Virus record (IMG/VR): IMGVR_UViG_3300020439_000068
Location: 1 to 26,016 of that record
Reading direction: 5' to 3' (one strand)
Length of the DNA stretch: 26,016 nt
Source: a virus
A program made the translations under genes and the position numbers. Shown here in pieces: positions 10,638-24,590 of the stretch (position 1 is its first letter; each line of letters starts with the position of its first letter). The notes beneath the pieces are model-generated. The model did not search any database. It worked only from the letters and a program-made list of their open reading frames with translations, and was not told where the DNA came from.

Positions 10638-11096
10638 ATGTATAAAGAATTTTTAGAGCACCTTGAACTTAGGGAAGGTAATGAAGAGTGCGTATATCTT
10701 GACAGTCTTAACAAGCCTACATGCGGTGTTGGGCACTTGTTAACTGAAAGAGAACGTGAAGTTTATAAAGTTGGAGATGAAGTTTCCAAAGAGCAAAGAG
10801 ATGCGTGGTTAGATCAAGATGCTGCTCAAGCTTGGGAAGCTGCAGCACAACAAATGCAAGTGTTAGGTGTTGAAGACCCACACTTTATTATAGCATTAGG
10901 TTCTGTTAACTTTCAACTAGGAACTCGATGGATGTCAAAGTTCCCATCAGCTTATCGAGCTTTAAAAAACAAAGACTACGATGAAGCAATTAAACAAGTC
11001 TCAACAGGTTCTGGAAAGGACGGTCAATCCAAATGGAAAGAACAAACACCGGTAAGAGTTGAAGATTTTGTGACAGCTATTGACAAATTGAAATAG
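10638..11096 (+). CDS. Endolysin, T4-type lysozyme (GH24, 152 aa)
   Basis: This muramidase would cleave the glycan strand of peptidoglycan at the end of infection. The GH24 triad is intact and correctly spaced: E13 in LELREGNE, D22 in VYLDS and T28 in KPTCGVGH. In T4 lysozyme the triad is E11, D20 and T26, the same 9- and 6-residue gaps. The later NFQLGTRW-x-FPSAYRAL segment matches the C-terminal lobe of the family. The 152-aa length is normal. There is no signal peptide, so it needs the holin encoded at 11252. The start is 3 bases after the large virion gene without a clear ribosome-binding site, so translation is probably coupled. Confidence 0.95.
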   Translation: MYKEFLEHLELREGNEECVYLDSLNKPTCGVGHLLTEREREVYKVGDEVSKEQRDAWLDQDAAQAWEAAAQQMQVLGVEDPHFIIALGSVNFQLGTRWMSKFPSAYRALKNKDYDEAIKQVSTGSGKDGQSKWKEQTPVRVEDFVTAIDKLK

Positions 11097-11105
11097 GACA
11101 TTATA

Positions 11106-11255
11106 ATGATATTGTACTTAGAAGATCAACTAGAAGCTTGTTATAGGCAATACTGCCTACATCAAATCAAACAAGACATGCCATTCATGAGTCTGGACGA
11201 TTTTAGAAATATGTTTGAAGACTTAATGGAAGTTATATATAAGGACGAAGAATGA
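11106..11255 (+). CDS. Small hypothetical protein in the lysis cassette (49 aa)
   Basis: The frame begins ATGATATTG and ends in a TGA that overlaps the holin ATG (ATGA), a strong sign of a real coupled gene. AGGAC lies about 11 bases upstream of the start. The product has the composition of a small soluble helical protein: MILYLEDQLEACYRQY at the start, two Cys, Met-rich middle and an acidic end (YKDEE). No membrane segment. It might modulate lysozyme or holin, but only position suggests that. Confidence 0.6.
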   Translation: MILYLEDQLEACYRQYCLHQIKQDMPFMSLDDFRNMFEDLMEVIYKDEE

Positions 11256-11722
11256 AAGATATGTTAAAAAATCTAGTAGGTGCTGTGGCTCCTACAATAG
11301 GTACTGCTCTTGGTGGACCGATGGGTGGAATGGCAGCTAATATGATAGCTGATGTTTTAGGTGTACCGAATACACCAAAGGCTATTGAGAAAGCTATACA
11401 AGAAGCTACACCTGAACAGATGCTTGAACTTAAAAAGGCTGAACAAGCTTTTGAGTTACAGATGAAAGAGCTTGATGTAGATGTATTCAAGTTAGAAGTA
11501 GGCGATACACAAGATGCTAGAAAAGCTTTTAGTAAAGACTGGACAGCACGTATTGTAGGTGTATCCGTAGTTGGTGGTTTTATGGGTTATATCTTTCTTG
11601 TAACACTTCAACCACCAGAACAAAATTCAGAAGCCTTGATAAACCTAGTCTTAGGATATCTAGGTGGATTGGCATCGGCAGTGATTAGCTTTTATTTTGG
11701 AGCATCACATAAATCAGATTAA
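11252..11722 (+). CDS. Holin, three-segment GTA/phage type (156 aa)
   Basis: The product fits the 'holin of 3TMs' family first described for gene transfer agent release. Residues 8-37 are a Gly/Ala/Met-rich hydrophobic segment. Residues about 42-95 form a charged linker ending in the typical GDTQDARKAFSKDW sequence. Two clear membrane helices lie at about 100-120 (IVGVSVVGGFMGYIFLVTL) and 129-150 (LINLVLGYLGGLASAVISFY). It would form the inner-membrane lesion that lets the lysozyme reach the cell wall. Its ATG overlaps the preceding small gene and its stop overlaps the following one (TAATG), so the cassette is a coupled unit. Confidence 0.85.
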   Translation: MKDMLKNLVGAVAPTIGTALGGPMGGMAANMIADVLGVPNTPKAIEKAIQEATPEQMLELKKAEQAFELQMKELDVDVFKLEVGDTQDARKAFSKDWTARIVGVSVVGGFMGYIFLVTLQPPEQNSEALINLVLGYLGGLASAVISFYFGASHKSD

Positions 11723-11902: not shown

Positions 11903-11980
11903 GTGAGTGACGGTATCTGCGTTATATGTATTGTTGGTTGGGTATACTTAGTAGTTTCGGGATACTACTATTTCTTCTAA
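11903..11980 (+). CDS. Possible tiny hydrophobic peptide (25 aa)
   Basis: A GTG-initiated frame encodes 25 residues that are nearly all hydrophobic or aromatic (CVICIVGWVYLVVSGYYYFF at the C-terminal end), i.e. one membrane span. The only ribosome-binding hint is GAAAG 3-4 bases upstream; GGAG at 11879-11882 is about 20 bases away. It fits in the gap between the lysis cassette and the exported-protein genes. It could equally be chance in AT-rich sequence. The rest of the gap (11981-12062) shows only weak A/T hairpins. Confidence 0.3.
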   Translation: MSDGICVICIVGWVYLVVSGYYYFF

Positions 11981-12062
11981 CCACTACTAAAACTTAAGAA
12001 GTATTTTAACGAACGCTATTGTTAGCTTCACAGGAAAAGTGCACTTTAAAATTGGAGATAGA

Positions 12063-13115
12063 ATGAAAAAAGTGTTGGGCACATTATTGGTGTCATTATT
12101 TACTGCTGTTTTATATTCAGATCAAACTGGAGACTGTACAGCAGGTTCTCAGTATTGTGAACAGAATAGTTTAGAGACTACAAATACGACAACTACAACT
12201 AATACAAATACAAACACAAATACTAATACGAATACTAACACTAATACCAATACCAATACTAATACAAATACTTCCACGAATACAAATACAAATACTAATA
12301 CCAATACAAATACTAATACGAATACTAATACCAGTACAAATACAAACAGTAATACGAATGTAAATACAAATACATCTACTGCTACAAATCAAAATACAAA
12401 CGTCAATACCAATACATCTACCAGTACAGTTAATTCAAGTGTAGATCAAAATGTTACGAACACTACGACAAGTACTTCAAATAATACAAATACCAATGTC
12501 AACACATCAAACTCGACAAGTACCACAAACAACACCAACGTTAATCAGTCTACTTCAGAGTCAAATGTCACGACTGATAACACGAATACTAATACCAATA
12601 ACAACAATACCGTATCTGATAATACTAACAGAAATATTAACGAATCAAATTCTACCCAGACTATAAATCAGAATGTTAAAACTAAAGCTCCTCCGGCTTC
12701 TGCTATTGCTCCTAGTATCATGTCTTACTCTCAAGACTTATGTACCACAGGAGTATCAGGTGCTTTTCAGGGGCAGGTCTTTGGTTTGTCAGGAGGGAAG
12801 GCAGTTCGTGATGAGAACTGTGAACGTCTAAAGCTTTCTAAGTATCTCTATGATACTGGTATGAAAGTAGCTTCTGTTTCAATCCTTTGTCAAGACCCAA
12901 GAGTTTTTAGTGCTATGGAAATGGCAGGAACTCCATGTCCTTATCAAGGTAAGATAGGTAAAGAAGCTGCCCAAGCTTGGAAAGAAAATAAACACGACAG
13001 ACCAGACTACGAAGAGTTAAAAGATAAATACGTAGCACACTGTAAGACACAACGAAACTCAAACGGTAAAAAGAAATCAGGACGTACCTGTGCTAAAGAA
13101 TTTTATAGCCAGTAG
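12063..13115 (+). CDS. Exported protein with long Thr-Asn repeat and Cys-containing C-terminal domain (350 aa)
   Basis: I place the start at the ATG at 12063, with GGAG (12054-12057) 5 bases upstream, rather than an in-frame GTG at 12039. This gives a classic signal peptide: MKKVLGTLLVSLFTAVLYS, cleavage probably near residue 19. Residues about 38-205 are almost only Thr, Asn, Ser and a few Val/Gln, starting as strict Thr-Asn alternation. A compact C-terminal domain of about 125 residues follows with several Cys (DLCTTGVSGA, DENCERLKLSKYLYD, SILCQDPRVF, GTPCPYQG), likely disulfide-bonded outside the cytoplasm. I recall similar C-terminal domains in marine phage proteins, without known function. 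The downstream gene begins inside its last codons. Confidence 0.8.
   Translation: MKKVLGTLLVSLFTAVLYSDQTGDCTAGSQYCEQNSLETTNTTTTTNTNTNTNTNTNTNTNTNTNTNTNTSTNTNTNTNTNTNTNTNTNTSTNTNSNTNVNTNTSTATNQNTNVNTNTSTSTVNSSVDQNVTNTTTSTSNNTNTNVNTSNSTSTTNNTNVNQSTSESNVTTDNTNTNTNNNNTVSDNTNRNINESNSTQTINQNVKTKAPPASAIAPSIMSYSQDLCTTGVSGAFQGQVFGLSGGKAVRDENCERLKLSKYLYDTGMKVASVSILCQDPRVFSAMEMAGTPCPYQGKIGKEAAQAWKENKHDRPDYEELKDKYVAHCKTQRNSNGKKKSGRTCAKEFYSQ
12201..12350 (+). repeat. Hexanucleotide (AAT-ACN) tandem repeat
   Basis: The 6-bp unit AATACN repeats almost without interruption, to about 12330 and then with substitutions. Thr codons rotate among ACA, ACT, ACG and ACC, while Asn is mostly AAT. It encodes the Thr-Asn array of the exported protein. 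The third-position variety indicates an old, protein-level repeat rather than recent slippage. Confidence 0.9.
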
Positions 13116-15213
13116 TCTACTGTGTTTTAGTACACTCGTAAGCTCTACATACATCTATGAAGGCAATCAATCTTTGATTGACCTTACAAATCAAACAGGA
13201 ACAACCAATCTTAACTCAGGTGACGACCAGTTATCTGCAGCATTTAATCTAGACTTTACGTTTAAGTTTTACGAAAACGACTATACATCGGCTCGTATGG
13301 CAACGAATGGTTGTTTGCATTTTGGTTTAGGTACAGGCAATGTTAATTACAATAACTATTGTGGTGATTACACTCCGGATCCTTTACCTCAATACAATTA
13401 TACGTTGTTTCCTTTTTGGACAGACTTGATAAGAGACAATCAATCTAAAATGCTTGCTAAGAACTTTTCAGACAAAGCAGTTTTTGGTTGGTATAATTTA
13501 AAAGAATATAATAGAAATAATACTGACAACAGCTTTGAAGTCATATTGTGGACCAACAACACCTATGAGTTTAGGTATGGTGCACTAGATATAATACAGC
13601 ATGATGTTTTGATAGGAGAACAAGGAAGTTCTTCTCAACTGTATACGTATTATTTCCATGATGAATGTAACACAGGCACAACAAACACAGCTACTTGTTA
13701 CAACTATGATTGGAATGCATCGGATAAGAACACGAACTTAGAGAATGGAGGTTCTTTATATAGTGAAGGCTATATAGACTGCAGTAACCCATTAAACAAT
13801 AGCAGTTGTTCAGGCTATGCAGCAGCTTACTTAGCTCAACAATGTGACATAGACTCGTTGTATGACACTAGCTGTCCTAATTATTGGGAAGCTTATGACG
13901 ACCAACAATGTGCAGAAGACCCTCAGTATGCTCCGTTCTGTGCCGGTTATCAACAAGAACAATCCATAGCTTACTATGTAGAAGATGAGTTTGATTATGG
14001 TTATGAGGAAGAAGAATACTACGAAGAGATTTTATTTGAAGAAGAATGGTATGAAGAACCGGTAGATGATTATGTATTTGTTGAACCTCAATACGAAGAA
14101 GAAGTCTTTGTTGTTATGTTTGACGAACCCTATGAAGAGGAAGTATACTTTGAAGAAATATTTGTAGAAGAATCGTATGAAGCTCTACCAGTCATTGAAG
14201 AAGAATATATAGTAAGCTTTGAAAGACTTGATGAGCCTGTAATATTTGCACATACAACTGAACTATTAGACGTATTTGAATTTGAAATTATAAGAGAGGA
14301 ATTAGAAGATGAACTTAGAAATGATGAAACAGATGAAGAAGAACTTGTTGAAGCGTTGGAAGAAATTGAAGAGTGGTTTGAAGAAGAACTGGAAGAAGTT
14401 CAAGAAGCTGATGAAGTCTTCGAGACTACAGAAAGTCGTGAAGAACTTCTTGCCGAAGCCGAAGAAATCAACGAAGAAGAGAGCGAAGAAAGCACCGAGC
14501 AAAAAAGCTCAGTAAGAATGTCAGCATTAGCTGTTGTAGCTAATACTATACAGACTGCTAGGAATAGTGTTTCTAGCTCCATACGTGGCTCTGGTGGAAC
14601 GAATAGAAGTTCAGGAGTATCTGCAGTTACATCTAGTGTAAGTGGGTCTTCAGGGTCCTCTATTTCATCTACCGGTGGGATAAGTACAACAAGCTCTCCA
14701 AGCATATCTGATCAAGTTGTCTCAGCATCAGTACAAAACCAACAAGTTTTGGCTATGAGTTCAGACGTAAATACCTCTTCAGGTAGTGTAACTATTAATA
14801 TGATGCCTGACTTAGATGGTACTCCACAAGTTGCAATGGTAGATGTACAAGTGCAAGATATGCAAGGTGAAATTGATACAGCTATCTCAGGAGTTATGAC
14901 AGCTAGTGAAGCTGATCAAATTGCTGATCAAATTGTATCTCAAAATATTCAAGAGCAACAGGACCAAGCAGAAGTAGAACAGCAAGAAACTGGACAATAC
15001 TCTGACGAGTCAACTCTTGTAGCTTATTTAGGATACGTTGTAGGCTTTGATGCTTATCGAGATTTAAGTATTCCGCAGCAAGAAACATGGTATGAACCAC
15101 GAGCTATTTATACTGATGCAATGATCAATGATAATACTCAAGCTTTCTCAGGGTTAGCTACTGTTAGCTTGAATAGACTAACAGAATTACAAAACCTACA
15201 ACCTAATCTTTAG
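13090..15213 (+). CDS. Exported nidogen-like (NIDO) protein with Cys repeats and acidic region (707 aa)
   Basis: A GTG start 8 bases after AGGA overlaps the preceding gene by 26 bp. Residues 1-19 form a signal peptide (MLKNFIASSLLCFSTLVSS). Residues about 50-190 resemble a NIDO domain: ATNGCLHFG, LFPFWTDLIRD, FEVILWTNNTYEFRYG. Residues 229-290 hold three units of about 22 aa with paired Cys (C231/C240, C252/C262, C274/C284) and a following Gly/Asn-Tyr. Residues about 298-470 are extremely rich in Glu, with Tyr and Phe. About 490-545 is a Ser/Gly linker, and the C-terminal 160 residues are Gln/Asp-rich. It is most likely periplasmic, surface or virion-adhesive; the exact role is unknown. Its TAG overlaps the stop of the converging gene. 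Confidence 0.8.
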   Translation: MLKNFIASSLLCFSTLVSSTYIYEGNQSLIDLTNQTGTTNLNSGDDQLSAAFNLDFTFKFYENDYTSARMATNGCLHFGLGTGNVNYNNYCGDYTPDPLPQYNYTLFPFWTDLIRDNQSKMLAKNFSDKAVFGWYNLKEYNRNNTDNSFEVILWTNNTYEFRYGALDIIQHDVLIGEQGSSSQLYTYYFHDECNTGTTNTATCYNYDWNASDKNTNLENGGSLYSEGYIDCSNPLNNSSCSGYAAAYLAQQCDIDSLYDTSCPNYWEAYDDQQCAEDPQYAPFCAGYQQEQSIAYYVEDEFDYGYEEEEYYEEILFEEEWYEEPVDDYVFVEPQYEEEVFVVMFDEPYEEEVYFEEIFVEESYEALPVIEEEYIVSFERLDEPVIFAHTTELLDVFEFEIIREELEDELRNDETDEEELVEALEEIEEWFEEELEEVQEADEVFETTESREELLAEAEEINEEESEESTEQKSSVRMSALAVVANTIQTARNSVSSSIRGSGGTNRSSGVSAVTSSVSGSSGSSISSTGGISTTSSPSISDQVVSASVQNQQVLAMSSDVNTSSGSVTINMMPDLDGTPQVAMVDVQVQDMQGEIDTAISGVMTASEADQIADQIVSQNIQEQQDQAEVEQQETGQYSDESTLVAYLGYVVGFDAYRDLSIPQQETWYEPRAIYTDAMINDNTQAFSGLATVSLNRLTELQNLQPNL

Positions 15214-15578
15214 TTTGCTAAAGGATTTTTATTATCTGCTAATATCTTATCAATCTCATCTTGCATGAATCTTACTTCAGCTTCTAAAGCAACGATATCT
15301 TGACGATCACCGTTTACTGATTCAGCAATAGTTTTTAAAGATGGGTTTATACCTTCATCAATACTCTTATTGATATAGTCAACAGATGTTTCTATTGATG
15401 CAAACCTTTCTTCAATAGCTTGTTGAGCTGTCTCGGTATCTCCAATCCCACCTATCTGTGCTTCAAGATTTTCAAGTCTGTTCACATAAGTAGCACCAGT
15501 ATATCCAAACCCTGCAAGAGTTCCGACAATACTAACTAAAGCTATTAATTGTGTAGTTTTATTTTCAAACCAGTCCAT
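15210..15578 (-). CDS. Membrane-anchored coiled-coil protein (122 aa)
   Basis: AGGAGA precedes the ATG by about 6 bases. Residues 9-31 form a membrane segment (TQLIALVSIVGTLAGFGYTG), followed by about 80 residues of charged helix with hydrophobic heptads (YVNRLENLEAQIGG; IVALEAEVRFMQDEIDKIL). The N-terminal anchor plus long coil is the layout of an inner-membrane spanin or a membrane scaffold. It is the last gene of the minus-strand arm, and its stop overlaps the stop of the converging plus-strand gene. No family name can be given. Confidence 0.7.
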   Translation of the reverse strand: MDWFENKTTQLIALVSIVGTLAGFGYTGATYVNRLENLEAQIGGIGDTETAQQAIEERFASIETSVDYINKSIDEGINPSLKTIAESVNGDRQDIVALEAEVRFMQDEIDKILADNKNPLAN

Positions 15579-23916: not shown

Positions 23917-24171
23917 TTAAGAATCGTCAGAATCTTTTGGTTCTTCTTCTGACGGAACATCACCATTAACGATCTCAACGATTCGGTTAGAGAAAAAGTT
24001 AATCCCTGCCTGAACTTCTTCTAAGTCCAATGTAAGATTTACTTTCTTCTGATTCAATCGTTGCAGTCTACCGAAGATACCTTGACCTTCTTCAGGTAAG
24101 TCCTCTACGTTAATCTGTACATCATCAATAGTAATAAAAGGTTTTTCATCATTCATAACTTGGTCATTCAT
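23917..24171 (-). CDS. Small acidic protein, DUF6447-like (84 aa)
   Basis: GAGGAG lies about 8 bases before the ATG. The pattern (TIDDVQINVEDLPEEGQGIF, then a helical Leu-rich stretch and QAGINFFSNRIVEIV, then an acidic Ser tail) resembles DUF6447, a small two-part fold (beta strands then helices) frequent in marine phages and cyanobacteria. Function is unknown. It lies 2 bases after ssb and just before the terminator, so ssb and this gene would be made in excess over the replisome enzymes. The family match is from memory of the pattern. Confidence 0.6.
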   Translation of the reverse strand: MNDQVMNDEKPFITIDDVQINVEDLPEEGQGIFGRLQRLNQKKVNLTLDLEEVQAGINFFSNRIVEIVNGDVPSEEEPKDSDDS

Positions 24172-24173
24172 AA

Positions 24174-24590
24174 TTAAAACTCCTCACCATCGGTGAAAAA
24201 CTCATCACCATCACCGTTCTTGTAAGGCACAAGATCAATCACTTGTACAGCTTGTAAATCCAATCCGGTGTAAGGACCATACTTACCTTCACCACTGTAC
24301 TCGTTATATTGAACACGTACCTTCGAGCCATTACCGACAGCAAGATTAACTTCTTGCTTATCGTTGTCAAGTAATCTAGGTGCAGGTCTAATCATTCCAT
24401 TAGGACCATTCACTTTCCTCTTGATCACGACAGCAGGACCTTCATCGTGCTGTTTTATTTTATGACCCCTAGATGCAAAGTCGTCTGCAACATCTTGCTC
24501 TACAATAAGATCAAGAGTATAGACTGGCTCAAACTTTGTGTTTGGAGTCGTGATGCTTGCCCATTTGGCAATGCCATTTAATATAGCCAT
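24174..24590 (-). CDS. Single-stranded DNA-binding protein, T7 gp2.5-like (138 aa)
   Basis: AGGAGG lies 8 bases before the ATG. The protein begins AILNGIAKWASITTPNTKFE, typical of phage gp2.5-type OB-fold proteins. It has mixed beta sequence through about residue 120 (TLDLIVEQDVAD; SKVRVQYNEYSG; LDLQAVQVIDLV). It ends in an acidic tail with terminal Phe (DEFFTDGEEF). In T7 gp2.5 the acidic tail with terminal Phe binds polymerase and primase-helicase. The protein is shorter than T7 gp2.5 (232 aa). It is the first gene of the replication block, and its position before primase-helicase agrees with T7 order. Confidence 0.85.
   Translation of the reverse strand: MAILNGIAKWASITTPNTKFEPVYTLDLIVEQDVADDFASRGHKIKQHDEGPAVVIKRKVNGPNGMIRPAPRLLDNDKQEVNLAVGNGSKVRVQYNEYSGEGKYGPYTGLDLQAVQVIDLVPYKNGDGDEFFTDGEEF

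Follow-up and report, generated by a model that had tools for sequence, protein, structure and literature searches.

A conserved three-gene module encoding predicted exported and membrane-anchored proteins in unrelated marine phage genomes

Results

Genes A, B and C in the window

Analysis of a 26,016-nucleotide stretch of viral DNA (IMG/VR record IMGVR_UViG_3300020439_000068, positions 1 to 26,016; hereafter, the window) revealed three adjoining genes, named here A, B and C, which occur side by side in phage genomes far beyond what chance would give, and which form a module, carried by hundreds of marine phages, that is proposed here to bridge the host cell envelope to help the virus exit. 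An earlier note on this DNA, made from the sequence alone, had described A and B as a coupled pair of exported proteins at the end of the late operon. The coordinates, the 26-bp overlap between both genes, the predicted signal peptides, the Cys residues, the Thr-Asn array, the Glu-rich run and the Ser/Gly linker of that description were all present. The coupling also stood, as A and B are always adjacent, but the system is not made of two genes, since C is always present and a further gene, L, appears in one branch; nor does the unit end with B, gene C on the opposite strand being part of it too.

Gene A (12063-13115, plus strand, ATG start) encodes a 350-aa protein with 8 Cys, predicted to be exported. 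It begins with a putative signal peptide of about 19 aa (12063-12119, plus strand, AVLYS/DQTG), continues with a Thr/Asn/Ser low-complexity spacer (residues 36-208, 12168-12686, plus strand), identified by its composition (72% Thr+Asn, 84% Thr+Asn+Ser), and then with a conserved 4-Cys domain (residues 209-320, 12687-13022, plus strand), defined by alignment and by an AlphaFold2 (AF2) model. The stretch preceding this domain ranges from 18 to 317 residues in 129 relatives, and the four Cys are invariant in an alignment of the domain from 10 divergent phages. The AF2 model of the domain was of moderate confidence, with a predicted local distance difference test score (pLDDT) of 79.6 and a predicted template modelling score of 0.58. 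When this model was compared with the PDB (Foldseek, VIA-align), the matches were weak and no convincing fold emerged, no solved relatives of A were found by sequence, and its matches among predicted viral structures were uncharacterised phage proteins only. The profile phrog_20531, which contains the A domain and records no function, partner gene or structure, matched all the window-type A domains compared (61/61, best E value 1.9e-15), including that of the window (E = 1.4e-12).

Gene B (13090-15213, plus strand, GTG start, 122 relatives in IMG/VR) encodes a larger protein of 707 aa, also predicted to be exported, with 11 Cys and a net charge of -115. Its putative signal peptide, of about 19 aa (13090-13146, plus strand, TLVSS/TYIY), is followed by a beta-rich N-terminal domain in the AF2 model (residues 22-230, 13153-13779, plus strand), by Cys-rich helical repeats supported by alignment and AF2 (residues 231-295, 13780-13974, plus strand), by a Glu-rich segment with 36% Glu and mostly low pLDDT (residues 296-480, 13975-14529, plus strand), by a Ser/Gly/Thr linker in which these residues amount to 44% (residues 481-606, 14530-14907, plus strand), and by a conserved, helical C-terminal tail carrying the motif WYxxxxIYxxxxxxDN (residues 607-707, 14908-15210, plus strand). 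The core of this motif, IY..D[NLAI], was found inside the last 60 aa in 103 of 105 full-length relatives. The AF2 model of the 707 residues was largely disordered (mean pLDDT 58), with mostly good local confidence for residues 22-290, and its comparison with the PDB (Foldseek, VIA-align) gave weak matches only, none of them convincing.

No named family matched B over its cut-off. The profile of the NIDO domain (PF06119) matched a group consensus of the N-terminal domain with E = 0.0027 and 18.2 bits, below the gathering cut-off of 25, and it did not match any single B member at E<=0.01. In several pelagiphages, whose B proteins are also Glu-rich, the N-terminal domain was CBM_4_9-like (PF02018, below the curated cut-off) instead of NIDO-like, and in roseophages B was short and this domain was absent. 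Thus, the N-terminal beta domain of B varies across groups, whereas the tail is kept.

The signal peptides were assigned with a rule-based heuristic, not with SignalP, that looks for Sec/signal peptidase I (SPase I)-like signals and for lipoboxes. SPase-I-type signals were detected in 132/133 distinct A-type ORFs (open reading frames) and in 105/108 B-type ORFs, and the only lipobox matches among them corresponded to the small roseophage lipoprotein genes L, not to A proper. No transmembrane (TM)-like segment was seen in mature A or mature B.

Gene C (15210-15578, minus strand) is convergent with B, with which it has 4 nt in common, and encodes a 122-aa protein with a predicted N-terminal TM segment (residues 11-29, 15492-15548, minus strand; top 19-aa hydropathy of 1.68 at residue 11), a coiled coil and a C-terminal Asn-Pro-Leu (NPL) motif (residues 118-120, 15219-15227, minus strand). 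In an alignment of 31 sequences with 10-70% identity to the C of the window, Asn-Pro was invariant and Leu was present in at least 90%; the motif lies a few residues from the C-terminus. Family matches of C were weak and of a sort common to many coiled coils; among them was phrog_739, "Rz-like spanin" (3e-4 at best), in 5 of the 31 sequences. In a close relative (locus L003), C is encoded on the plus strand, flanked by B and by the same minus-strand small gene. Since C is on the minus strand in the window and on the plus strand in this relative, still adjoining B in both, its place next to B has survived an inversion that moved it to another transcription unit. C was convergent with B in 14-16 loci. 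A phase-variable inversion of C was considered and rejected, as the sole flanking inverted repeats were imperfect (20 nt, 80%).

Two genes annotated in GenBank as "lysozyme", CRP-207 gp73 (L089:3292-3873) and CRP-810 gp51 (L091:6162-6584), actually correspond to C, with one TM segment, a coiled coil and an NPL end; consequently, the apparent presence of a lysozyme next to the module in these two phages was discarded. In addition, Pelagibacter phage HTVC115P carries a second TM/coiled-coil gene without NPL (gp52, L083:7917-8279) directly after B, with C (gp49) three genes further.

Linkage of the three genes

Searches seeded with each of the genes gave consistent results. A B-seeded search of IMG/VR found A adjoining B in 63/63 of the kept loci with usable sequence upstream of B, with overlaps typically of 26, 31 or 62 nt, or of one base. 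Relatives of the A domain were detected in at least 594 IMG/VR stretches, and a B-like ORF followed A in all 86 A genes that had downstream sequence. Under strict criteria, C started at 400 nt or less from where B ends in 115 of 117 loci, and at 432 and 676 nt in the remaining two; a search for C-like genes elsewhere in 1.26 Mb gave no further credible case, and only about 0.09 would be expected near B by chance. When C itself was used as seed, B was adjacent in 72/72 testable loci, 58 of them co-directional and 14 convergent. Finally, when pelagiphage B was the seed, A was no more than 1 kb upstream of it in 27/28 testable loci and was matched by a C gene after B in 31/32, and a search seeded with roseophage A found C at 1.8 kb or less downstream in 77/78 loci. 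In agreement with this, no widely separated homologues, the outcome that the earlier note had named in advance as counting against the pairing, were seen.

In roseophages, a small ORF with the Cys pattern of half an A domain, which we call L, preceded A in 72/72 testable loci. A simple lipobox pattern fitted 39 of these 72 ORFs; among the others, those listed have ...TTAC or ...TSC in this position and probably encode lipoproteins too. Examples of L were located at L089:1725-1940 (CRP-207), L091:4558-4818 (CRP-810) and L188:886-1101. Separately, positions 454-696 of the window (plus strand) encode a TM/coiled-coil protein that resembles by eye the product of a CRP-810 gene (L091:4316-4558) located directly upstream of L and A.

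Distribution among phages

A tblastn search of INPHARED detected the A domain in 11 phage records, namely the pelagiphages HTVC202P, HTVC115P, HTVC023P, HTVC033P, Mosig (Kyanoviridae) and Baldr, the roseophages CRP-207 and CRP-810 (HMO-2011-type), a Votkovvirus (Autographiviridae) and two spring-water phages. The cultured phages examined had a B-type ORF within a few hundred nt after A, and the B of the window itself had no match in INPHARED. More distant A domains, without an evident B, were present in EBPR podovirus 1 and in Achromobacter phage phiAxp-2. The module is found in unrelated marine phage genomes, several SAR11 phage lineages among them. No cellular origin was found: a degenerate-pattern scan of genome contigs gave 15 loci, nearly all in contigs of environmental metagenome-assembled or single-cell genomes.

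The polymerase nearest to that of the window belongs to HTVC115P, with 50% identity, and the IMG/VR record is 26 kb long and of unspecified completeness, so the assignment as "T7-like" made in the earlier note could not be established. Phages HTVC103P and HTVC115P both grow on strain HTCC7211 and have the polymerases closest to that of the window, and the equivalent place in HTVC103P contains no module. Likewise, HTVC023P and HTVC027P both belong to the HTVC023P type and infect strain HTCC1062, and HTVC027P has no module between the common capsid and tail genes. Because these close relatives on the same hosts lack it, some phages can do without the module, which is thus accessory.

Lysis neighbourhood

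As the earlier note had indicated, a lysozyme gene and a holin-like gene precede A in the window. The former (10638-11096, plus strand) matched Pfam PF00959 (Phage_lysozyme, E = 3e-9), and the latter (11252-11722, plus strand), encoding a membrane protein that matched phrog_1544 (function unknown, E = 1.4e-27), is probably in the same transcription unit as A. Relatives of this holin-like gene were found near the module in 29/53 loci. An exact TTGACA-N16-TATAAT sequence, a match to a sigma-70-type consensus only, was observed at 11080-11107 (plus strand), at the end of the lysozyme gene and ahead of the holin-like gene, A and B, and a possible GTG-start, 25-aa hydrophobic peptide at about 11905-11982 (plus strand), between the holin-like gene and A.

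In HMO-2011-type phages, a slot bounded by the same two flanking genes was occupied in different ways: by L-A-B-C plus a holin-like gene in CRP-207, by holin-like genes and an endolysin in CRP-13, and by no more than one gene, of the TM/coiled-coil type, in both CRP-603 and CRP-2. In CRP-1 the slot was empty, and the endolysin and a unimolecular spanin (u-spanin) were located elsewhere. When 12 complete or almost complete genomes were scanned for lipoboxes, anatomy pointed to this u-spanin of CRP-1 and to an Rz1-like lipoprotein of CRP-235, phages that do not carry the module, and the four module carriers scanned showed no convincing alternative spanin candidate. Both genes were unannotated as such (CRP-1 gp54, L397:4870-5211; CRP-235, 24147-24392).

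Comparison with known systems

The inner-membrane component of two-component spanins (i-spanin) has an N-terminal transmembrane domain (TMD) and a periplasmic, usually coiled-coil, domain (PMC6139136), and Rz and Rz1 interact at the C-terminal end. By sequence, C has this anatomy, with an N-terminal TMD, a coiled coil and a conserved C-terminal end; moreover, the genes of the module are adjacent or overlapping, often near holin and endolysin genes, and the roseophage unit includes the lipoprotein gene L. However, the module adds two large, putatively exported proteins without lipobox, A and B, the branch of the window has no lipoprotein partner, as L is found in roseophages only, and the exchangeable beta domain of B is a feature unknown in spanins. 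Canonical Rz (PF03245) was not detected over the cut-off in 25 records. Unlike u-spanins, neither A nor B has a lipobox or a C-terminal TMD, and C has no lipobox.

A second comparison was made with the curli/type VIII secretion genes of pelagiphages (PMC9599517, PMC9004378), which resemble the module in being accessory, multigene sets encoding exported low-complexity proteins in SAR11 phages, spread across phage families. In contrast, A, B and C matched no curli family over the cut-off, and C is a predicted inner-membrane coiled coil. The curli explanation was rejected, as CsgG (PF03783) was found in 0/25 module-carrying records, some of which are fragments, and the control genomes were positive. 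The A protein of the window had no match to curlin (CsgA/B) families in Pfam at E<=1, although phage CsgA/B are divergent (PMC9599517).

The proposal in the earlier note of an undescribed system held, insofar as family libraries contain a single unnamed PHROG for it; the parts of the literature on phage curli, spanins and lysis genes available to us held no description of an A-B-C module.

Discussion

Our preferred explanation, to which we give a probability of about 0.38, is that A, B and C constitute one accessory, envelope-spanning complex acting at phage exit, spanin-like but outside the spanin family. C would be anchored in the inner membrane through the segment at its N-terminus, with the coiled coil extending into the periplasm and the Asn-Pro-Leu end serving as a docking site. 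A and B would be exported by Sec, the 4-Cys domain of the former and the tail of the latter being likely to pair with C and with one another, and their Thr/Asn, Glu-rich and Ser/Gly stretches would act as flexible spacers. The variable N-terminal domain of B, or the small lipoprotein L in roseophages, would engage the outer membrane or the surface, so that, once the endolysin had removed the wall, the tether would help to breach the outer membrane, as spanins do. Three features make release the use with the best support: C has i-spanin anatomy, roseophages have the lipoprotein L, and the module occupies a common lysis slot. Also in its favour are the tight linkage of the three genes, kept by C through an inversion, the spanin candidates of the module-free CRP-1 and CRP-235, and a holin-family or lysin match at 6 kb or less from the module in 38/53 loci, a count that has no chance control. 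Among the functions listed in the earlier note, help in release was the one that best fitted the parts. As the window has no lipoprotein partner, we do not classify the module as a spanin.

In this explanation, the gene linkage, the conserved motifs and the differing N-terminal domains of B are observations, export and membrane anchoring are predictions from sequence, and the complex is inferred. The role in lysis is the least certain part, and several results weigh against it. The recognised endolysin of HTVC115P, HTVC202P and Baldr is encoded well away from the module; A and B are always together, but they are often, not always, beside lysis genes. No lipoprotein was found in the window or in the scanned pelagiphages. 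The genomes compared for presence or absence of spanins were too few for a test, no recognised spanin was found in the module-free HTVC103P and HTVC027P, and the module is dispensable in these two lineages. Furthermore, A and B are much larger than the known outer-membrane spanins, and a device that only disrupts membranes would not be expected to carry a binding domain that can be exchanged.

The main rival is superinfection exclusion or receptor masking, in which an A-B complex held by C at the surface would cover or bind glycans or receptors through its variable domain, blocking adsorption or injection by competing phages. We consider it less likely, though an accessory module with a binding domain that differs between phages fits it almost as well: it would account for the presence of the module in unrelated genomes and its absence from HTVC103P and HTVC027P, for the replacement of the NIDO-like domain of B by a CBM_4_9-like one, or its loss in roseophages, with the tail kept, and for the predicted export of both A and B. 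However, the analysis revealed no outer-membrane anchor and no secretion pathway leading out of the periplasm (CsgG was not detected in the 25 records), and the module is often beside lysis genes, where early protection would be unexpected.

Control of lysis timing appears improbable. According to this explanation, C would be of the holin/antiholin type and A and B periplasmic sensors or regulators, in a layout like that of the T4 holin T and its exported antiholin RI, the latter described as periplasmic and with a cleavable signal peptide (PMC8385771). The single TM segment and putative periplasmic domain of C, the predicted export and Cys content of A and the holin-like genes as common neighbours agree with it, but many loci already have a separate holin-like gene by the module, and a B of 700 aa with a beta domain and long spacers far exceeds the known antiholins in size.

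The least likely of the functions proposed in the earlier note, and a very improbable one, is that of a virion-borne adhesin or decoration, with A and B as structural proteins for cell attachment, since, in spite of the binding-domain character of the B N-terminal domain and of the location of the module after tail-fibre-like genes in HTVC115P and in the Votkovvirus genome, the cleavable Sec-type signals predicted in nearly all A and B would remove them from the cytoplasm, where virions are assembled, the genomic position differs between phages, and C seems to be membrane-anchored.

Taken more broadly, the explanation that the module is a widespread, phage-only, envelope-spanning apparatus not described so far, with a C coiled coil ending in an NPL docking site, a Cys hub in A and an exchangeable B, that would serve either in opening the outer membrane or in controlling the surface of the host and correspond to no known lysis or exclusion system, comes close to an even chance.

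SAR11 bacteria are among the commonest in the sea, and how their phages and the other carriers of the module handle the host outer membrane has been little examined. The module, hitherto unnamed, is present in cultured SAR11 phages, a T4-like pelagiphage, an Autographiviridae phage and HMO-2011-type roseophages, where its genes are currently labelled as "hypothetical", "carbohydrate binding", "tonB" or, wrongly, "lysozyme". Naming it provides a defined gene set and a testable docking motif, for which the cultured carriers HTVC023P, HTVC033P and CRP-207 have natural controls in their module-free relatives HTVC027P, HTVC103P and CRP-603.

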